Shown piece after piece: positions 382 to 31,819 of a stretch of 35,561 nt of DNA; the stretch's first letter is position 1; each line of letters begins with the position of its first letter. This DNA is from Spirochaetes bacterium ADurb.Bin218 (lineage in GTDB: Bacteria > Spirochaetota > UBA4802 > UBA5550), in assembly GCA_002069965.1 (NCBI GenBank), contig MWCI01000033.1, positions 1 to 35,561 on the forward strand, written 5' to 3'. Below the pieces are notes generated by a model. The model saw only the letters and a program-made list of their open reading frames with translations, searched no databases and was not told the DNA's origin. Made by a program: the position numbers and the translations under genes.

Positions 382-395
382 TTATCTCAGCCAGC
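373..395. terminator. Hairpin spanning the convergent hypC and kinase stop codons
   Basis: GCTGGCT (373-379) pairs with AGCCAGC (389-395) around a 9-base loop. The hypC stop TAA (379-381) and the kinase stop TGA (minus strand, 389-387) both fall inside it. There is no clear T-tract on either side, so it is a weak intrinsic terminator or a barrier between converging transcripts. Confidence 0.5.
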
Positions 396-2690
396 CATGA
401 CAGAGGCAATAACCTCCCCTATTTCATCTATGTTATAGGGTTTTTTTAAGACAGCTATAAATCCATAATCCCTGTAGTTGGACATTACAGTATCATGGGA
501 ATAGCCACTGGAAACAATCCCCTTAAGCATTGGATCAATTCCTCTCATTAACTGAAAAGCCTCATTGCCTCCCATACCACCTCTAATCGTTAGATCAAGC
601 AGAACAAAGTCAACCTTAAGTCCGCTTTCATGAAGCTTTCTAAAAATTTCTACAGCCTCCCTACCCTCTGAAGCGGTATAAGTCTCAAAGCCAAAGGATT
701 TTATTATTTCCTCTGCAACCATTCTAATCATTTCATCATCATCCATTATAATGACTCGCCCACTGTAGCACTGACCACTTTTACAGGCAAGGACATTTGA
801 TTCAAAATAAGATTCAGATGCTGGTAAAACAAATTTAAACATTGCACCTCTGGCAGTATTTAGAGCTAATATTGAGCCATTATGCCTTTTTATTACAGAG
901 TAAACAACAGAGAGTCCCAAACCACTGCCAGAGGGTTTAGTTGAAAAAAATGGATCAAAAATCTTACCAAGGAATTTCTCCGGTATACCAGGCCCTTCAT
1001 CCTCTATGGAAATCTCCACATAATCCCCTGGAACTACCCCATAGTCATTGTCAGCCTTTAAGGAAATATTTTTGCACCTGACATAGATATTTCCCTCAGA
1101 CATTAGTTGTGCTGAGTTTATAAGTATATTGTTCAATACCTGAGATATCTGAGACTCATCGGCATTTACTATTTTTACATTGTCATCAATTTCAAAATTG
1201 GTCTTAATCTTACTGCCACTGAGGGCAAATTCGCTTGAGCGCTTTATAAGATCAGGAAGTGAGATCAATTTTTTTACAGGTTCTCCTCCCTTTGAAAAGG
1301 TCAAAAGCTGCTCAGCAAGATTACGTGCTCTCAGGGCTGAGTATTCTGCATCCTCAAGGTACTTCAAAGCAATCGAAGGATCAGAATATAAATTTTTCTT
1401 GGTTAGAGCAACAGCACCCAACATACCTGTAAAAAAATTATTAATGTCATGAGCGATACCTCCAGCAAAAATGCCTAAGGATTCAAGCTTTGATGAATTT
1501 ATAAGATGCTCCTTCATCCTCTTTATTTCTGTAACATCCTCAATTACAAAAACATAACCATAAATGTTCCCATCAATAGCCAAAGGAGAAACCCTGAGAG
1601 TTAAAGATCTCTTATCATCACCAGCAGAAAATATAAGTGGATTATAGAGATCAAAAAATTTAGAACCAGAAATAATATCGATGCCGGCAAGGTTTACAGC
1701 ATTTCCATCACTATCTTTTACCACAAGGATAGAGCGAATATCCTTTAGTCTAACATCACTGGAACCAATTAAGAGAATTTTTCTGGCACTTTCATTGATA
1801 AGCTCAATGCCAAAGCTGCTATCAACCTCAATAATTCCTGGCGCAAGAACAGTAATTGTTTTATAAAGACGCTCCTTTTCTTTTTGAAGAGATATATTCA
1901 TAGCCATAATTTCATTTTGCGAGGCAGCCATTTCCTCATTCATCTGCTCAATCTCTTCGTATTGTGCCTCAAGCTCTTCATACTGACTCTGGATTTCCTC
2001 TGCAAAGCGGGACTGTTCATCAGCATACTCTTTAATAACCTTTTGCTGATTTGTTGCAAGCTCATATAAAGCTTCTGTTTCAATAATATTCCTGTAAGAG
2101 AGATATGCAATTACGAAAAGCATCAATATAGAAAATATCTCCCTTGAGCTTAACACTCCATAATTGACCTTTCCACCTGTATAAGTAGCAAAGGGCATAT
2201 CTACTCCATTGAGCCAGGCCAGAATATAAAAGGCAATAATGCTGATTATAACTACGAAGGACATGGCCCTGAATAATCTTTTATTATACAAAAACTGAAA
2301 TGCAACTAAGTTTGCAGCCAACAACCAGTTAATGTGATTGCTCTGAGCAGCATAAAACCAGTTTATAGTAAAAGCATAATTAAACCGTGCAATGATTGGT
2401 ATAGAAAACATGATCACTGCAACAATCAAAGCATAAACAATAGGATTTGCACCACGTTTTTTCCTTTTATAAACTCTATAGGCAAAATAAATAGCAAAGC
2501 CATATAAGACAATTGTTGGTAACAAAACAGTGATTCTGTGACCTGCAATAAACTGAAATGTGAGTCCGATGGCGGAATTTAAGACAGTAACGGCAATGAA
2601 AATTTTTGCACCTCTAATCTCAACTATGTCCATAGAAGAGTATTCACTTCTTGGAACACTTTTGCCAAAGAAAAAGTCTTTTATGCTCAT
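387..2690 (-). CDS. Membrane hybrid histidine kinase (6 TM, coiled coil, PAS, HisKA, HATPase, receiver)
   Basis: This 767-residue sensor kinase has about six hydrophobic spans between residues 27 and 200, which may themselves sense a membrane or small-molecule signal. A Glu-rich coiled coil follows at about 205-275, then a PAS-like domain at 280-390. The dimerisation/phosphoacceptor helix has His414 in GGIAHDINN. The ATPase domain has NN near 520, DEGPGIP at 564-570 and GSGLGLS near 588-594. The C-terminal receiver has DDD at 650-652, phosphoacceptor Asp699 and Lys749. The kinase should pass phosphate from His414 to Asp699 and probably on to a separate partner. No DNA-binding regulator or phosphotransfer protein lies beside it, so the output is unknown. 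It is divergent from PEP carboxylase, which may be coincidence. The Shine-Dalgarno is weak. All catalytic residues are present. Confidence 0.93.
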   Translation of the reverse strand: MSIKDFFFGKSVPRSEYSSMDIVEIRGAKIFIAVTVLNSAIGLTFQFIAGHRITVLLPTIVLYGFAIYFAYRVYKRKKRGANPIVYALIVAVIMFSIPIIARFNYAFTINWFYAAQSNHINWLLAANLVAFQFLYNKRLFRAMSFVVIISIIAFYILAWLNGVDMPFATYTGGKVNYGVLSSREIFSILMLFVIAYLSYRNIIETEALYELATNQQKVIKEYADEQSRFAEEIQSQYEELEAQYEEIEQMNEEMAASQNEIMAMNISLQKEKERLYKTITVLAPGIIEVDSSFGIELINESARKILLIGSSDVRLKDIRSILVVKDSDGNAVNLAGIDIISGSKFFDLYNPLIFSAGDDKRSLTLRVSPLAIDGNIYGYVFVIEDVTEIKRMKEHLINSSKLESLGIFAGGIAHDINNFFTGMLGAVALTKKNLYSDPSIALKYLEDAEYSALRARNLAEQLLTFSKGGEPVKKLISLPDLIKRSSEFALSGSKIKTNFEIDDNVKIVNADESQISQVLNNILINSAQLMSEGNIYVRCKNISLKADNDYGVVPGDYVEISIEDEGPGIPEKFLGKIFDPFFSTKPSGSGLGLSVVYSVIKRHNGSILALNTARGAMFKFVLPASESYFESNVLACKSGQCYSGRVIIMDDDEMIRMVAEEIIKSFGFETYTASEGREAVEIFRKLHESGLKVDFVLLDLTIRGGMGGNEAFQLMRGIDPMLKGIVSSGYSHDTVMSNYRDYGFIAVLKKPYNIDEIGEVIASVMAG

Positions 2691-7153: not shown

Positions 7154-8569
7154 TTATAAAAACTTATACTCTATGCTAAAGGATATAACATTTGCATATT
7201 TTGAGTATTCTGTCTTGTGATAAGTGTAAACCCCAGGGGTTGCAGTTGGCTGCTTTGTTGCATTATTGCTTGCTGTGATATAAAAATTATGCATGTAAGA
7301 AACCATAAGATTAAGGTTTTCTTCAGTTCTAATTTTTATACCAGTTCCAACGTTCCACAGGTCTATCTTGTTGAGAATTTCACTTAAGTACTCATCCTTA
7401 ACATTCATACGGTCATAATTTACCCCACCTGTCCAGTGGATATTTTTAAGAAACTGCCAGTCAAAACCAACTCCAAGCTCCCATGCAGTATCAAAATCAT
7501 ACTTAATTAAATTTTGCTTATAAGCTCCTGCTGTTATTGGTGTGGATGCAGTTGGCTTCTCATAGGTTCCCCAATTTGGGAAGTAAACAAGACCTGAAAG
7601 AGCAACCTTAAATTCAGGAGTCACAACATACTCAGCACCAAGCATAAGCTTTGCAGGGAGGTCAAACCTGAACTTTCTCCCATCTGTATAACCAGACATA
7701 GAAGAAAGAGCCCGCTCTCCACCAAAGGCAGGTGTAGCAACAGAGAGATCCTCATTGACATCAACTGTCCAATTCATCTTTGACATAGACTCAAAGGTCA
7801 TTGCCAGATTCAAATTAGATGCCGGCTGAACATTTACGCCAATTATTCCCATGTAACCAGTTGCAGTCCACTTGCCATCATAAACTGTTGTTTTTTCAAA
7901 ACCAGAACCAAGACCTGATTTAGTCACCTTGAGTTCAATTGTCTGAGATCCCTCAATAACTCTCCCACCAAGAGACACTGTCATCATGTCATTTACCTTG
8001 TATGCTCCACCTATTGTAAGTGCTGGAAACATGCTGAGCATATCCACACTTACATTTGCTCCATAAGAAGGAGTTGATGAATCCCAATAGACTTTCTTTG
8101 CCCCAGAAGACCCCCAGCCAAACATAGAATCAACTGTCTGAACTGCAAGGTTGAGATTAGGAGAACCATTAGCCCAGAAAGTACTTCCACCACCACCGAT
8201 GATATGAAGTCCAGCATAAGCAGCCCAGTCATCCTTTTTATAATTTACATAGAGAGAAGGAACATACTTACTTGGCTTATGAGTATCATACCTCTTCTGA
8301 CCCATATAAGTATCAGACTTAACTGCTGTGGTGTTGTTGTTATCTATTGTCTGGTTAGAAAAGTGAACATGAAGACCATCAAGCATCTTCACAGTTCCTG
8401 CTGGATTGTAGGTCACACAATCCACACTGTCTGTTGCAGCTGTTCTTGTGGGGTTTCCAATCCATTCAGCACTTTGATCTGTAATTTGATCAATGTAGCT
8501 TGCAAATGAAGGGGTGAAAGAACACACAATCGCCCCAAAGAGGGAAAGCACTAAAAGTTTCCTATTCAT
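7154..8569 (-). CDS. OmpP1/FadL/TodX-family outer-membrane transporter
   Basis: This 471-residue outer-membrane beta-barrel probably passes long-chain fatty acids or other hydrophobic compounds. A signal peptide spans about residues 1-23 (Lys-rich start, hydrophobic core, PSFA cleavage site). The mature N-terminus carries the family hatch motif NPAG (55-58). The rest alternates polar and hydrophobic residues as in barrel strands and ends with an aromatic residue, EYKFL, typical of Bam-dependent barrels. The start at 8569 is preferred to the upstream ATG at 8599: GGAGGA lies 5 bases ahead of it, and the longer form would put ten extra residues before the signal peptide. The gene is monocistronic with its own terminator. 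The adjacent FadR-type regulator is a plausible controller, but no TGGT-N2-ACCA site is visible just upstream. Confidence 0.9.
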   Translation of the reverse strand: MNRKLLVLSLFGAIVCSFTPSFASYIDQITDQSAEWIGNPTRTAATDSVDCVTYNPAGTVKMLDGLHVHFSNQTIDNNNTTAVKSDTYMGQKRYDTHKPSKYVPSLYVNYKKDDWAAYAGLHIIGGGGSTFWANGSPNLNLAVQTVDSMFGWGSSGAKKVYWDSSTPSYGANVSVDMLSMFPALTIGGAYKVNDMMTVSLGGRVIEGSQTIELKVTKSGLGSGFEKTTVYDGKWTATGYMGIIGVNVQPASNLNLAMTFESMSKMNWTVDVNEDLSVATPAFGGERALSSMSGYTDGRKFRFDLPAKLMLGAEYVVTPEFKVALSGLVYFPNWGTYEKPTASTPITAGAYKQNLIKYDFDTAWELGVGFDWQFLKNIHWTGGVNYDRMNVKDEYLSEILNKIDLWNVGTGIKIRTEENLNLMVSYMHNFYITASNNATKQPTATPGVYTYHKTEYSKYANVISFSIEYKFL

Positions 8570-8981
8570 CTGATTCCTCCAAAAATTTATTAAAAGCACC
8601 GCTTTATATATGTTGCAGTGACTTTTTGCTTTATTTATTTTTATTTTTTTGTTTAATCTTTAATCCCCCAATATACCGTCTTTCCGGTTTTTATTTTTTT
8701 TTAGACTAAAAAAATCCAGAAAAAATTTTCTGGTTTCAATTTTATATATTTTCTATTTTTGCTACATTTCAATTTAACACTATATCAGATTGAAATTAAA
8801 TTTCAAGCAAAATTTTTACTTACATTAAAATAAAAAATCAATAGTAAAATTTTTGTATAATAGGTTTAATTTTAAACTTATTTTATTATGTTAACTTTTA
8901 AAATACAGAGTAAAACAATAGTGATAATTAAAAAAACTATCGTAAAAATTAGTTTATATAAAATTTTTACCGTGGAAAAAA
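8570..8981. other. Long AT-rich intergenic region
   Basis: About 400 bases lie between the FadL-type gene and the upstream TPM gene, with no supported reading frame. Bases 8570-8580 hold the porin ribosome site. I see only short imperfect hairpins (for example CCAGAAAA/TTTTCTGG near 8712-8732 and ACCG/CGGT near 8680) and no recognised riboswitch. The porin promoter should be here, but no single candidate stands out. Confidence 0.4.
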
Positions 8982-25224: not shown

Positions 25225-25584
25225 TCAAGCAAGAGCCTTTTCCGCAGCTTTTTGTAATCTCTCAGGTGGAAATGGCTTAACGACAAAATCCTTAACACCC
25301 AGTTTGATAGCTTTAGTCAAAAGGCTTTCCTGACCTAAAGCTGTAACCATTATTATGCGAGCTCCAGGATCAAAAGATAGAATCTCTCCAGCAGCCTCAA
25401 TTCCATCTTTTTCCCTCATGGTAATATCCATAGTTACAAGATCAGGCTTTAATTTCTTATATAATTCAACGGCTTCATTCCCGTTTTCAGCTTCGCCGAT
25501 AATTTCATGTCCTGCAGGGACAAGGGCATCTTTCACTAGTGTTCTCATAAACTTCGCATCATCTACTATCAATACTCTTGCCAT
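25225..25584 (-). CDS. cheY: CheY-type response regulator
   Basis: The 119-residue single receiver domain has acidic pocket Asp8-Asp9, phosphoacceptor Asp53 (VTMDITM), Thr81 (MVTALGQ) and Lys103 (VVKPF). As CheY it would take phosphate from CheA and bind the flagellar switch. The MTALGQ and KDGIEAA pattern is of the Thermotoga/Bacillus kind, which works with CheC/CheX phosphatases and not CheZ. This fits the CheC domain on the local CheA. It lies 137 bases after cheB and has its own terminator. Confidence 0.93.
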   Translation of the reverse strand: MARVLIVDDAKFMRTLVKDALVPAGHEIIGEAENGNEAVELYKKLKPDLVTMDITMREKDGIEAAGEILSFDPGARIIMVTALGQESLLTKAIKLGVKDFVVKPFPPERLQKAAEKALA

Positions 25585-25721: not shown

Positions 25722-26756
25722 TTAAATATTCTTTATAATTCTCTCTGTTATTCTTTCCAGAGGCACAATTTCATCTGTTGCTCCTATTTCTACAGCTACC
25801 CTATTCATGCCATAAACAACAGAGGTTTCTTCATTCTGAGCAATGGCAAAACCCCCTTTTTTCTTTATTTTAAGCAAGCCCTCAGCTCCATCTCTACCCA
25901 TTCCTGTCATTATAACTCCAATAGCCTTATTCTCAACATGCTCTGCAACAGAATTAAAAAGAACATCTATAGAAGGCATATGGCCAGAGACCTTCTCTGA
26001 TTTAAATACGTGAATTTTATATTTATCACCTTTTTTATATATCTCCATATGAGAGTGACCTGGTGCCAGATAGCCATGTCCTGGAAGAACATCGTCTTCA
26101 TCCTCCGCTTCTTTTACAATGAGATTTGAACTATCATTTAGCCTTTTTGCAAAGGCAGCGGTAAATCCCTCTGGCATATGTTGAACCACAAGAACAGGGG
26201 ATGGAAACTTATCCGGAAAATTCTTAAAAACAGTTATAAGAGCCGAAGGCCCCCCTGTAGAGGTGCCTATTGCCACAACCTTTTCTGAAATCCCTTTTAC
26301 AGAAAATTTTGAAGGAATCTGAATCTCAGGGGTTTCTCTCTTAACAGGGATCTTCGATCTGGCAACAGATCTAACCTTCCTGACAAGCAAATCGCCGATC
26401 TCTTCCACAGACATTGATAGAAGGCTTGAAGGTTTAGGAATAAAATCAACAGCACCAAGCTCAAGAGCCTTAAAAGTGGCATCAGCTCCATGCTGTGTCA
26501 AGACGCTCATCATTATTACAGGTCTTGGTTTTGTCTTCATTATGTGTTTAAGAGCAGCAAGACCATCAAGAATGGGCATCTCTATGTCCATTGTGATCAC
26601 ATCTGGATCAAGCTCCTGATTCTTAAAAATAGCAGTCTTCCCATTATTGGCGGTTCCAACAACCTCTATATCCTCTTCCTTTTCAAGGATATCTGTTATT
26701 ATCTTCCTTACAAGGGAAGAGTCATCAACCACCAGGACTTTTATCTTTTCAGACAT
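25722..26756 (-). CDS. cheB: Chemotaxis response regulator methylesterase CheB
   Basis: The 344-residue enzyme has a receiver domain (3-120; Asp11-Asp12, phosphoacceptor Asp57, Lys109 in PKPSS). A linker leads to the methylesterase domain (155-344) with catalytic Ser166 (GTSTGG), His193 (VQHMPEGF) and Asp289 (MTGMGRDG). It demethylates and deamidates chemoreceptors when phosphorylated by CheA. The start overlaps the end of cheA by 8 bases, so translation is coupled. No cheR is present in the window. Confidence 0.97.
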   Translation of the reverse strand: MSEKIKVLVVDDSSLVRKIITDILEKEEDIEVVGTANNGKTAIFKNQELDPDVITMDIEMPILDGLAALKHIMKTKPRPVIMMSVLTQHGADATFKALELGAVDFIPKPSSLLSMSVEEIGDLLVRKVRSVARSKIPVKRETPEIQIPSKFSVKGISEKVVAIGTSTGGPSALITVFKNFPDKFPSPVLVVQHMPEGFTAAFAKRLNDSSNLIVKEAEDEDDVLPGHGYLAPGHSHMEIYKKGDKYKIHVFKSEKVSGHMPSIDVLFNSVAEHVENKAIGVIMTGMGRDGAEGLLKIKKKGGFAIAQNEETSVVYGMNRVAVEIGATDEIVPLERITERIIKNI

Positions 26757-29700
26757 TACTCTTAAAACCCTTTACAAGCAATTTAAGGGATTCTGTTTCA
26801 GGAAGCAGCATTAGATTGCCAATTATTTGTTCATCTTCAAAGAAGAAGGCTGTTTCCATCACAACTGCATAGTCATGTTCAATATTATGCATCACAAGGA
26901 CTGAGTCTATGACAGCTTGCAAAAAATCATGGACAAAGACAGGAACATTTGGCTTCACTATCATATTGGACTTTTCTGCATAAACGTTTAAAATAGATGA
27001 GCCAATTATATTTGTTAACTCTTTCAGAGCAGAAATTCCATCTTCACTTAATTCTTTTGTAGACTGATTTTTATATCCATAAAGCATATCAATAAGATCA
27101 AAGCCTGTTTGCTCCTTCAAAAGAAGAAGAAGAGTGCCATTCATTTCACCTTCTATACCAAGCATTACGCCAATATATGGCTCATTGAGCCCACCAAGAA
27201 AATCTGGAATTTTTTCAACAGGAGTAAATCTAACCTCTGGTATAGAAAGATCTATCCTCTTTGAAAGAATCTTAGAGAGAGACTCTGCAGCATTTGCAGC
27301 TCCAATATTTGAAATTATACTAAAATCATTTATATCCTCTTTTGATATTCCAAGCTCATCTCCTATGTGAGAATCAAAGTCTCCTATGCTTAAGGAACGT
27401 GCTATATTTTGCTTTAACTCCTCCTTAAATTCAGAGAGAGCTCCCTTTACCTTTTCTTCTATTTCTTCATCTTCTTCTATTTTTTCATCACCAGAAGAAA
27501 CTTGTGAGCTAACAGAAGGGGCCATTTCTTCATTGTCCTGTATTTTTTCTTCTGATAGCTCCTCATCCTCTGCCAAAGCCTCTTTCTCCTCTTCAATGTT
27601 TTTCTCATCATCAAAGACAATGACATCGGATATATAGTTTGGCTTTTCACTTTGCAATTTCAATTCCTCTGCAGCAAATTGCTTATCCAGTTTACTCATG
27701 GAAGAATAATCCTCTTCTTCCATGTCTTCATAATCTGCAGAGTCTACCAGACGATCAGCAATTAACTTCTCCCTTTCTTCCTGAGAAAGCTTTTCTTGCT
27801 GAGAAATAACTCTATTTATCATAGTCTGGATATCCAGAATAAGACATATACTTCCGTCGCCAAGTATAGAGGCACCAGCAAGTCCTTCCACTGTTGTGTA
27901 GTTTTGCTCAAGGGATTTAATTACTATCTCCATCTTCCCTTCAAGGGAATCAACAATTAAGCCAATCTTTCTATTCCCAAAACCAACAACAACTACAGGA
28001 ATTTTATCATCAGGCTTTAAAGCGCTTTTTATTCCTATAAACTCATTCAGTCTAAGGAGGGAAAGTATCTCGCCCCTGAGATTTATTACCTCATGACCTT
28101 CAATTGTTGCAATGTCAGTATTGGATATCTTGATTGTTTCAATAACATCAGAAAGAGGAATCGCATAAACCTCTCTCCTTACCTTTACCATAATTGCAGG
28201 TATAATTGCAAGAGTAAGAGGAAATGTCAGAATAAATCTTGTTCCCATACCCTTTTCGGTTTCTATACTTACTGTTCCATTAAGTTCGTTTACAATTTCT
28301 TTAACAACATTCATACCAACTCCACGGCCGGATATATCTGTTATTACCTTTGCGGTGGAAAATCCAGGTATGAATATAAAATTATATATATCAGAGTCAT
28401 CCATATTAGCAAGAGCCTCAGGGGTTGCAAGATTCTTCTCTATGACTTTTTTCTTAATAGCATCAACATCAAGGCCTCTTCCATCATCACTTATCTCTAC
28501 AAAAATCTGGTTTCCGCCCTGATAGGCATTAAGTGTAATTGTGGCTACCTCTGGCTTACCCAATTTTACACGCTCCTCTGCTGGCTCAACACCGTGATCT
28601 ACAGCATTGCGAATAAGATGAAGCAGAGGTTCTCCAATTACATCTATAACCTTCTTGTCAAGCTCTGTATCCTCTCCTTTGATAATAAGTTCAACATTCT
28701 TTTTGTGCTCTCTGGCAAGATCTCTCACAAGCCTGTTAAACCTGCTAAATACCTGCCCTATAGGCACCATCCTTGTCTTCATTATACCTGTCTGGAGATC
28801 CTTGGCAATACGAGACATTTGCTCCATTCTGTTTTTGAATTCTGTTATAAGTGTCTTGTTATTTGAATATTTTCGTAATTCCTCATAGAGCCTATAAAAA
28901 CCAGAGTTTGCTATAACAAGCTCACCAACATTATTAAGTAGCAGATCAAGCTTATCAATAGACACTTTAACAGTTTTCAACATAGGAGTTTTTCTTCTAT
29001 CATGATCAACAGGGAGATCATTTTTTCTTCTTTCAAAAATATTTATATCGCTATCCTCATCACCAGAAGAACTATCTGAATCATCTGTAAAAGAATAAGA
29101 ATTGGATGATGCAGAGGCATAACTCTGCTCTCGATTTTCATTATTCCCATTTGCAAAGGATTTTGTTAGTTCAATTTCAATTGGAGCGCCTAATTTAATG
29201 GCTTCCTTCCCATCTTTTTTCACTGTGGTTATTCTGCGAAGTTCAATCTTTTCTATTTGATCTATATCACAATTTTTATACACCTGTTCTGCCTGAGAAT
29301 CTGTTATAATAACAATCTTGAATACATTTATATTGCTGTCGGCACTCATTTCCTCAAGGGATGGGAATATCTTCAATATATCACCTATGCGCTCAAGATT
29401 TGTTGAAATGAGCTGACTCTTTACCCACTTCATCTGAGCTGATGGCTCTATTGTAATAGTAGCCTCAATGACATCTTTCCCCTGAGCCAGAGCTTCTTTC
29501 AAAGAAGAAACCTCAGAGGAAGTGAAAGTTGTTTTTACAATCTCCTTTGGAGGTTGTTTCCTCTCAGGCTTATAATCTCCTAACTTCTCCTTTCTGGAAA
29601 GCTCATTTACCTCATTTATTCTCTCCTGAAGTGGCTTTAGATCCTGATGAGGTTCAACCCCAGAGGCAACAAGCTCAATAACCTCACTTATCATATCAAA

Positions 29701-29982
29701 ACACTTAAATATAACATCTACGACATCAGGTGTTACAACATTGGTTTTATCCCTTATACCCTGAAGTAAATTCTCAAGTCTATGAGCCAGATCACTTAAA
29801 TCATTTAGACCAACAAAGGCTGCAGAACTTTTCAGGGAATGAGCAGCCCTGAATATATTATTTATAATCTCCTCATCATCGGGATTTCTTTCAAGCTCCA
29901 AAACGTTTTTGTTCAATTCTTGAAGAAGCTCATCAGCCTCTTCCAAAAAAATATCCTGATATTCACCGAGAGAAAAAGTCAT
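26749..29982 (-). CDS. cheA: CheA histidine kinase fused to a C-terminal CheC phosphatase domain
   Basis: The 1077-residue protein is much longer than usual CheA (about 650-700). In order it has an HPt domain with His48 (RAAHSLKSSAAF), a P2-like domain (about 160-265), dimerisation helices (about 333-400) and an ATPase (about 400-575; Asn459 in HLIRNAVDHG, DDGRGLD, GRGVGMNVV). A CheW-like P5 domain (about 590-725), an acidic Glu/Ser-rich linker (about 730-880) and a CheC-type domain (about 880-1077) follow. The second CheC site is complete: Ser984-x3-Glu988-x2-Asn991. The first keeps Asn892 but has Ile889 in place of Glu. CheC proteins remove phosphate from CheY-P, so one chain appears to make and destroy the signal. 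No reading-frame break exists between the parts. Confidence 0.95.
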   Translation of the reverse strand: MTFSLGEYQDIFLEEADELLQELNKNVLELERNPDDEEIINNIFRAAHSLKSSAAFVGLNDLSDLAHRLENLLQGIRDKTNVVTPDVVDVIFKCFDMISEVIELVASGVEPHQDLKPLQERINEVNELSRKEKLGDYKPERKQPPKEIVKTTFTSSEVSSLKEALAQGKDVIEATITIEPSAQMKWVKSQLISTNLERIGDILKIFPSLEEMSADSNINVFKIVIITDSQAEQVYKNCDIDQIEKIELRRITTVKKDGKEAIKLGAPIEIELTKSFANGNNENREQSYASASSNSYSFTDDSDSSSGDEDSDINIFERRKNDLPVDHDRRKTPMLKTVKVSIDKLDLLLNNVGELVIANSGFYRLYEELRKYSNNKTLITEFKNRMEQMSRIAKDLQTGIMKTRMVPIGQVFSRFNRLVRDLAREHKKNVELIIKGEDTELDKKVIDVIGEPLLHLIRNAVDHGVEPAEERVKLGKPEVATITLNAYQGGNQIFVEISDDGRGLDVDAIKKKVIEKNLATPEALANMDDSDIYNFIFIPGFSTAKVITDISGRGVGMNVVKEIVNELNGTVSIETEKGMGTRFILTFPLTLAIIPAIMVKVRREVYAIPLSDVIETIKISNTDIATIEGHEVINLRGEILSLLRLNEFIGIKSALKPDDKIPVVVVGFGNRKIGLIVDSLEGKMEIVIKSLEQNYTTVEGLAGASILGDGSICLILDIQTMINRVISQQEKLSQEEREKLIADRLVDSADYEDMEEEDYSSMSKLDKQFAAEELKLQSEKPNYISDVIVFDDEKNIEEEKEALAEDEELSEEKIQDNEEMAPSVSSQVSSGDEKIEEDEEIEEKVKGALSEFKEELKQNIARSLSIGDFDSHIGDELGISKEDINDFSIISNIGAANAAESLSKILSKRIDLSIPEVRFTPVEKIPDFLGGLNEPYIGVMLGIEGEMNGTLLLLLKEQTGFDLIDMLYGYKNQSTKELSEDGISALKELTNIIGSSILNVYAEKSNMIVKPNVPVFVHDFLQAVIDSVLVMHNIEHDYAVVMETAFFFEDEQIIGNLMLLPETESLKLLVKGFKSNV

Positions 29983-30016: not shown

Positions 30017-30547
30017 TCAATTTATGGTCTTTGCAACTTCTGAGTCTTCAAGCAAAATAGACAGGGACATATTTAGTATGACTATAAGTCTATCCTGAAA
30101 TCTGCCTATACCTGTAATAAAATCCTCCGAAACCCCTGTTATAAGCTCAGATGGTGGATCTACATTGGCAAGGGGTATTCTAACAACCTGGTAAACATTA
30201 TCTACAAGCAAGCCAACCTGTTTGCCAGAGGTCTCCACAACTATTATTCTTGTCAGGTCTGTTATTTTCCCCTTTGGAAAGCCAAATCTTATACGCACAT
30301 CAACAACAGGTATAACATTGCCACGAAGATTAATAACGCCTTTGATAAATTTTGGGGTATTGGGCAAGCGTGTTATTTCAGGATATCTAAGAATCTCATG
30401 AACCTGCAGAATATCTACCCCATACTCTACATCATCTAACATAAAACTTACAAGCTGGATTTCCACATTTTCTGCACTTTGTTCAGATGCTCCAATGTCC
30501 TGAATCTCAGAAGTTTTTGCATTTTTAATAACCTTATTTAAATCCAT
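30017..30547 (-). CDS. cheW: Chemotaxis coupling protein CheW
   Basis: The 176-residue adaptor links chemoreceptors to CheA. After a polar N-terminal extension of about 28 residues comes the CheW fold: VEIQLVSFMLDDVEYGVDILQVHEIL, then FIKGVINLRGNVIPVVDVRIRFG, then VGLLVDNVYQVVRI. The core matches standard CheW length. It lies 34 bases ahead of cheA and is the first gene of the chemotaxis operon, preceded by about 230 non-coding bases. Confidence 0.96.
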   Translation of the reverse strand: MDLNKVIKNAKTSEIQDIGASEQSAENVEIQLVSFMLDDVEYGVDILQVHEILRYPEITRLPNTPKFIKGVINLRGNVIPVVDVRIRFGFPKGKITDLTRIIVVETSGKQVGLLVDNVYQVVRIPLANVDPPSELITGVSEDFITGIGRFQDRLIVILNMSLSILLEDSEVAKTIN

Positions 30548-30778: not shown

Positions 30779-31105
30779 TTATAATCCATCTCTCTGACTG
30801 GTAATACCTCCAAAAATATCACCAATAAGACCTTCATCAAGAAGGGATATAAGCTGACGGGCCTTTTCTTCTATTGCACCTTCAATGCCATTATTGATTT
30901 TCTTTAGCTGAAAATACTCATCAGCAATATTAAGAGCCACAAGTATTACCAATTGCAAAGAGCTCACATTGGAGGTATTTAGCTTTACCTCATCAATTTT
31001 TTTGTTAACATACTCTGCAAGCTCAAGTATATACTCAGGGGGGGCATCACCCTTTATATTATAGCTCTGCCCCATTATTGTTACTTTTACTTTATTCTCT
31101 TCCAT
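30779..31105 (-). CDS. zapA: Cell-division protein ZapA
   Basis: The 108-residue protein has the ZapA N-terminal module (VKVTIMGQSYNIKGDAPPEYILELAEYVNKKIDEV) and the long helix that forms the tetrameric coiled coil (LQLVILVALNIADEYFQLKK). ZapA bundles FtsZ filaments at mid-cell. It lies 12 bases after the coiled-coil/acidic protein, so the two form an operon. Confidence 0.92.
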   Translation of the reverse strand: MEENKVKVTIMGQSYNIKGDAPPEYILELAEYVNKKIDEVKLNTSNVSSLQLVILVALNIADEYFQLKKINNGIEGAIEEKARQLISLLDEGLIGDIFGGITSQRDGL

Positions 31106-31117
31106 AAAGCTATCCGC

Positions 31118-31819
31118 TTATTTGATATCATCATCCTCTATGATAATAATATCGTCATCGTCCTCTATCTTTTTTGCTTTTTTTTCTGAAGGAGCAGCTT
31201 CCTCATCAAAATCAGATTCATCAATGATTATCTCCTCGTCAGAGACATCCTCAATTATAAGCTCTTCCTTATCATCAAGGAGTATTATTTCTTCTTCATC
31301 TTCCATCTTTGTGGATTTTTTTTCCTCTGCCAGTAAATCTTCATCTTCATCTATAATTATTATATCTTCATCTTCTTCTTTCAGGTCCTTAGACTGTGGG
31401 GAAACATCCTCTACAACAACTTCCTCATCAAGAGGCATTGTCTCTTCCACAAGAACTTCCTCTGCTGGTTCAGAGATCTCAACTGGTTTATCCTTTGCAG
31501 CCTCTTCTACTGCTGTAAAATTAAACTCTCCTGATTGTAACACATCAAGCTTACCAAGTAAGCCAAGAATTTTCTTTTCAAGAGCATCTTCTTTGTCTTT
31601 AAGATCCTGCAACTCTTTCGTTGCCATCTCAAGCTCTTTTTTAACCTTCTGGATTTCCTGCTCCTTCTCCTCAAGAGCAAGTTTTGCATCTTCTATTTCA
31701 CCCTTTAAAGTTTCATTCTCATTCTCAAGCTTAGAATTTTCTGTTCTCAATTCACCAATGAGATGTAAAGCTTTTATAACCCTGCTTTCCAGTTCTTCTA
31801 ATTGCTGCATTGTTATCAT
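31118..31819 (-). CDS. Coiled-coil protein with repeated acidic/hydrophobic motif tail, zapA operon
   Basis: The 233-residue cytoplasmic protein begins with a heptad coiled coil (about 4-95; LEELESRVIKALHLIGELRTENSKLENE), as in ZapB-like division proteins. The acidic tail (about 115-233) repeats a short motif of two acids, three or four branched hydrophobics and two acids. Examples are EEVLVEE 120, EEVVVED 132, EDIIIIDED 151, EEIILLDD 176, EELIIED 185, EEIIIDE 195 and DDIIIIEDD 222. Such motifs could dock repeatedly on a basic groove or pair as beta strands. The start ATG has GGAGG 8 bases upstream. A division role is inferred from the zapA pairing. Confidence 0.85.
   Translation of the reverse strand: MITMQQLEELESRVIKALHLIGELRTENSKLENENETLKGEIEDAKLALEEKEQEIQKVKKELEMATKELQDLKDKEDALEKKILGLLGKLDVLQSGEFNFTAVEEAAKDKPVEISEPAEEVLVEETMPLDEEVVVEDVSPQSKDLKEEDEDIIIIDEDEDLLAEEKKSTKMEDEEEIILLDDKEELIIEDVSDEEIIIDESDFDEEAAPSEKKAKKIEDDDDIIIIEDDDIK

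Follow-up and report, generated by a model that had tools for sequence, protein, structure and literature searches.

The gene located at positions 26749..29982 (minus strand) of the window, i.e. the whole stretch of 35,561 nucleotides that was analysed, encodes a CheA protein of 1077 aa that continues into a CheC domain. This protein is most likely a bifunctional chemotaxis kinase carrying a tethered CheY-P phosphatase with a single catalytic site, the activity being suggested by its sequence features. The domain make-up and the predicted fold, the conservation of the second catalytic site, the loss of the first one and the conserved locus are established below.

Domain organization of the CheA-CheC fusion

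The fusion gene was identified as an open reading frame with matches in Pfam, NCBIfam and PDB. The CheA portion contains the complete P1, P3, P4 and P5 core together with P2, all recognized by Pfam, in order and on the minus strand: the P1/Hpt domain (residues 8-93, 29704..29961), where the phosphorylatable His48 lies within the motif AAHSLKSSAA; the P2 response-regulator-binding domain (residues 172-249, 29236..29469); the P3 dimerisation domain (H-kinase_dim, residues 336-403, 28774..28977); the P4 ATPase domain (HATPase_c, residues 453-590, 28213..28626), with both the N and G boxes for ATP binding in place; and the P5 CheW-like domain (residues 597-724, 27811..28194). An acidic linker follows (residues 725-874, 27361..27810, minus strand), which is mostly unconserved and differs in length among relatives; Asp and Glu account for 33% of its residues 725-870. 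The alignment reveals a conserved island in this linker, the KVKGALSEFKEELKQNI segment (approximately residues 844-860, 27403..27453, minus strand), located directly N-terminal of the CheC domain; it is likely a helix and could serve for docking or as a spacer.

The CheC domain occupies residues 875-1077 (26752..27360, minus strand) and is supported by profiles, PDB matches, alignment and predicted fold. Pfam CheC matches residues 984-1017 above the gathering score (E 1.3e-8), and the NCBIfam model CheC_Thtogales spans residues 887-1071 (E 1.4e-32) with 113 bits, below the equivalog cut-off of 250 of this model. The Thermotoga maritima CheC structures 1xkr and 2f9z are matched at about 3e-15 with the whole protein and at 3e-16 with the tail alone. 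Thus, the layout proposed by the sequence-only reading, a CheA of 1077 residues leading through an acidic linker into a CheC-like domain, is confirmed by Pfam, NCBIfam and PDB matches and by the AlphaFold model; the profile search that it had suggested recovered CheA, CheW and CheC, the last one indeed after residue 880. CheC is normally a separate protein, while here the domain sits on the CheA chain.

Predicted fold and catalytic sites of the CheC domain

An AlphaFold2 model of the CheC domain, obtained from a 17-row alignment, has a mean pLDDT of 83.7 and a pTM of 0.82 and displays the pseudo-twofold fold typical of CheC. Its best structural match is T. maritima CheC 1xkr (TM 0.86, Z 26.6); T. 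maritima CheC comes first, both by itself and complexed with CheD, and is followed by archaeal CheC, FliY and FliM; CheX is matched with a TM of about 0.5.

The second catalytic site, S984-x3-E988-x2-N991 (27010..27033, minus strand), aligns with SALREIGN of T. maritima CheC and presents the S/D-x3-E-x2-N motif of the family. In the first site (27307..27318, minus strand), I889 aligns with the catalytic Glu and replaces it, while N892 aligns with the Asn and is kept. The two-site motif of T. maritima is therefore absent and the domain is of a one-site CheC type. Both sites had been described in these terms, with one intact and the other deprived of its Glu, and the alignment with T. maritima CheC proves the residue numbers right.

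Among 17 aligned close relatives the Ser, Glu and Asn of the second site are invariant (17/17), and the Glu position of the first site is always occupied by Ile, Leu or Val. The same state, a first site lacking Glu and a complete second site, is found in all 32 non-duplicate fusions that share the genomic context described below, in the window's order and in families f11 and f34; the Asn of the first site is kept in 32/32. Considering all the non-duplicate fused domains, Glu and Asn of the second site are kept in 41/41. Outside the syntenic block, three of the nine fused domains keep the Glu of the first site and lack Asn at the aligned position, which in one of them (L112) is found one residue out of register, and five of the nine lack Ser or Asp at the first position of the second motif.

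Selection for catalysis would account for the invariance of the second site. This conservation speaks strongly for a working site and, together with the known activity of the family, allows CheY-P hydrolysis to be predicted. The first site, which retains the CheC fold, has probably lost its activity or serves at most for docking. The way in which it degenerated varies: the Glu is replaced by Ile, Leu or Val in the window's order and mainly by Ser, Thr or Ala in f11/f34, while f10, f28 and one member of f22 show the opposite pattern, a retained Glu with the Asn missing. Five separate CheC proteins from this phylum were compared: four retain the Glu and Asn pair in each of the two sites, and the fifth is a very long branch. 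A single-site CheC also occurs outside fusions, since the archaeal 3qta shows the same alignment pattern. A speculative proposal, which we consider rather doubtful, is that a CheC domain fused to the kinase can dispense with one of its two catalytic sites, or is under selection to lose it, the first-site residues being lost in ways that vary between fused lineages; the result would be a weakened, dose-matched and CheD-regulated phosphatase in each kinase dimer.

Genomic locus, distribution and descent

The fusion gene is preceded by cheW (30017..30547, minus strand, Pfam) and followed by cheB (25722..26756, minus strand), which overlaps its end by 8 bases, and by cheY (25225..25584, minus strand), whose product is the likely substrate and shows 85-98% identity across the order. 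The block cheW-cheA(CheC)-cheB-cheY-scpA is common to the window's order, f11 and f34, with thrS, rplT and zapA upstream wherever the contig extends that far. In the window, zapA (30779-31105) and a gene for a zapB-like coiled coil, below the cut-off (31118-31819), adjoin the che genes. Elsewhere in the window are a hybrid histidine kinase with a C-terminal receiver domain (387-2690, minus strand) and an ORF of 481 aa with no Pfam match (7154-8599, minus strand).

A survey of CheA proteins with a C-terminal CheC, as the earlier reading had recommended, was carried out across Spirochaetota and found the fusion to be widespread: the fused-domain profile matches 44 of the 46 sampled genomes of the window's order, nearly always within a CheA-sized frame, and further spirochaete families as well. 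The two genomes of the order with no match are incomplete. Besides the window, 18 loci from metagenome-assembled genomes hold relatives, all of them whole except three: L019 stops at a contig edge before the tail, L021, from the same genome, lacks the beginning of the gene, and the sequence of L014 ends part-way through CheC. The window itself comes from a draft assembly of 160 contigs, but a chimeric contig or a frameshift joining two genes, whose probability is negligible, is ruled out, since many independent genome assemblies, from several families, contain the same fusion as one open frame.

In the tree of CheC domains the window's order forms one clade (98/99) and f11 with f34 another (97/87), while the branch dividing fused from separate CheC is weak (57/66). 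Since the block is common to the order, f11 and f34, gene order points to a single vertical origin of the syntenic block. A second layout is found in f28, f27, f9 and f10 (L139, L140, L142, L143), where cheD directly follows the fused cheA-cheC; in f28, f27 and f9 cheX is also close to it. One f34 genome contains a second, more divergent CheA-CheC fusion (L131, G193:C9:233000-238500).

Chemotaxis partners in the genome

The genome of the window (G000, 3.03 Mb, 96.6% complete, 160 contigs) encodes four CheA proteins, and CheC is present only in the one of the window. Two separate CheX, both with ExxN motifs, are encoded on C43 and C7, and five CheD are found, two of which, at C11:47649 and C24:35517, carry GGAxMF and lie outside the other che clusters, while the remaining three lack this motif and belong to those clusters. 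Neither CheZ nor a separate two-site CheC was found in a search of this genome, at its 96.6% completeness. A weak CheX match at C11:33058 corresponds to FliM and not to CheC. Further clusters with CheA, CheW, CheR, CheD and CheB are located on C82 (L118) and at C11:3000-14000 (L119); the CheD of both lack GGAxMF, and on C82 two different cheD flank cheR on both sides.

The observation that cheC, cheD, cheX and cheZ do not occur separately holds for the window; genome-wide it fails for cheX and cheD, and the check for separate cheC and cheD that had been proposed recovers the latter and not a separate two-site CheC. The two CheX and five CheD refute the idea of a genome devoid of separate partners and leave unsupported the suggestion that the fusion replaces stand-alone phosphatases and CheD; a built-in phosphatase acting alone thus does not give the full picture. 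Furthermore, since five CheD are encoded, control of the tethered CheC by CheD may still occur.

Proposed role of the tethered CheC domain

In the preferred reading, the CheA part would autophosphorylate at His48 and transfer the phosphate to CheY, the product of the second gene downstream. CheY-P would then be hydrolysed at the only intact site (S984/E988/N991) of the C-terminal CheC domain, which hangs on a flexible acidic leash. The first site would maintain the CheC fold and, devoid of the catalytic Glu, would be inactive or a mere docking face. Phosphatase action would be located at the receptor array, may be modulated by one of the two GGAxMF-type CheD, and would couple CheY-P removal one-to-one to the number of kinase molecules, with the separate CheX perhaps active elsewhere in the cell. 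Plausible putative functions of the fusion are tethering, localisation and a sharper adaptation. Counted against this scheme are the weak split between fused and separate CheC, the non-syntenic fusions with no Ser or Asp at the start of the second site and the lesser weight of CheC catalysis in Bacillus subtilis described below; moreover, the genome encodes two CheX that carry ExxN motifs, and the contribution of the tethered domain may therefore be minor.

A less probable possibility, which nevertheless deserves attention, is that the domain is mainly a dock for CheD: CheY-P binding would shift the affinity for CheD, moving it from or to the receptors beside the kinase, with hydrolysis being secondary. 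Indeed, the contribution of B. subtilis CheC through CheD binding exceeds that through its phosphatase activity (PMC3513319), two CheD of the genome share the GGAxMF motif with T. maritima CheD, and cheD directly follows the fusion in f28, f27, f9 and f10; conversely, in the window's order cheD does not adjoin it. D1019 (26926..26928, minus strand) is invariant across the order and corresponds in the alignment to the Asp in VIDM of T. maritima CheC; it possibly lies on a CheD-facing surface; the CheC-D149K variant of B. subtilis is a point of comparison (PMC3513319). However, the corresponding Asp is lost in the syntenic f11/f34 fusions while a GGxxMF CheD is still there, and thus the CheC Asp and the CheD motif do not seem to co-vary; no joint change between them was found among the CheD loci compared, roughly half of the set (plus strand). 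Moreover, the catalytic Ser, Glu and Asn are invariant, a constraint that CheD binding should not impose.

It is improbable that the domain only binds or localises CheY-P, with no useful catalysis, like the CheC-like middle domain of FliM. FliM has no catalytic CheC motif. The loss of one site in all 32 syntenic fusions is compatible with such a module, as is a weak Pfam match of FliM to residues 879-983 (E 9.8e-4), which at 19.5 bits stays below the cut-off of 27; no FliMN_C match was found by Pfam in the fusion protein, which does not qualify as a FliM. The completeness of Glu and Asn at the second site in every fused sequence argues for catalysis instead, and the fold matches CheC well above FliM (Z 26.6 vs 17.9).

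Relation to known systems

The fusion type is already published, and the window provides a further member: fusions of CheC/CheX with F1-class CheA were described in Leptospirae, and a dual kinase/phosphatase role was proposed for them, by Berry, Andrianova and Zhulin 2023 (PMC10782961). As described there, those proteins likewise are spirochaete CheA followed by a CheC/CheX-family domain on one chain, to which type the present protein belongs; one-site catalysis, a conserved locus and CheD are not mentioned in the passage on these fusions. The window's order probably belongs to a class other than Leptospirae, as no genome beyond the order carried the label "same class" in the survey. Apart from this work, no report of CheA-CheC fusions was found in a literature search that took in few subscription papers or CheC-class reviews. 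Added here are the single-site state in all the sampled fusions, the conserved locus, the cheD layout and the genome-wide list of partners.

T. maritima CheC (1xkr, 2f9z) resembles the fused domain in fold, length and second site (SALxExxN), with 24% identity, but it is a separate protein with two complete sites and was crystallised with CheD. The Haloarcula CheC-like protein (3qta) similarly keeps SALxExxN at the second site and lacks the first motif in the alignment, but it is archaeal and separate. CheX, common in spirochaetes and present in two copies in this genome, is a CheY-P phosphatase that likewise has one ExxN site per chain, but it is a separate protein of about 155 aa with a shorter fold. 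Rhodobacter sphaeroides CheA3 (Porter 2008, through PMC10782961; PMC6829392) combines phosphodonor and phosphatase in one chemotaxis protein, as is proposed here, but with another phosphatase domain and a split kinase.

The presence of signal source and eraser on one chain offers a clean test, provided by nature, of how a chemotactic response is set by the proportion of kinase to phosphatase and by their location, and the conserved loss of one site poses an exact question, namely whether one site per kinase is a tuned dose.
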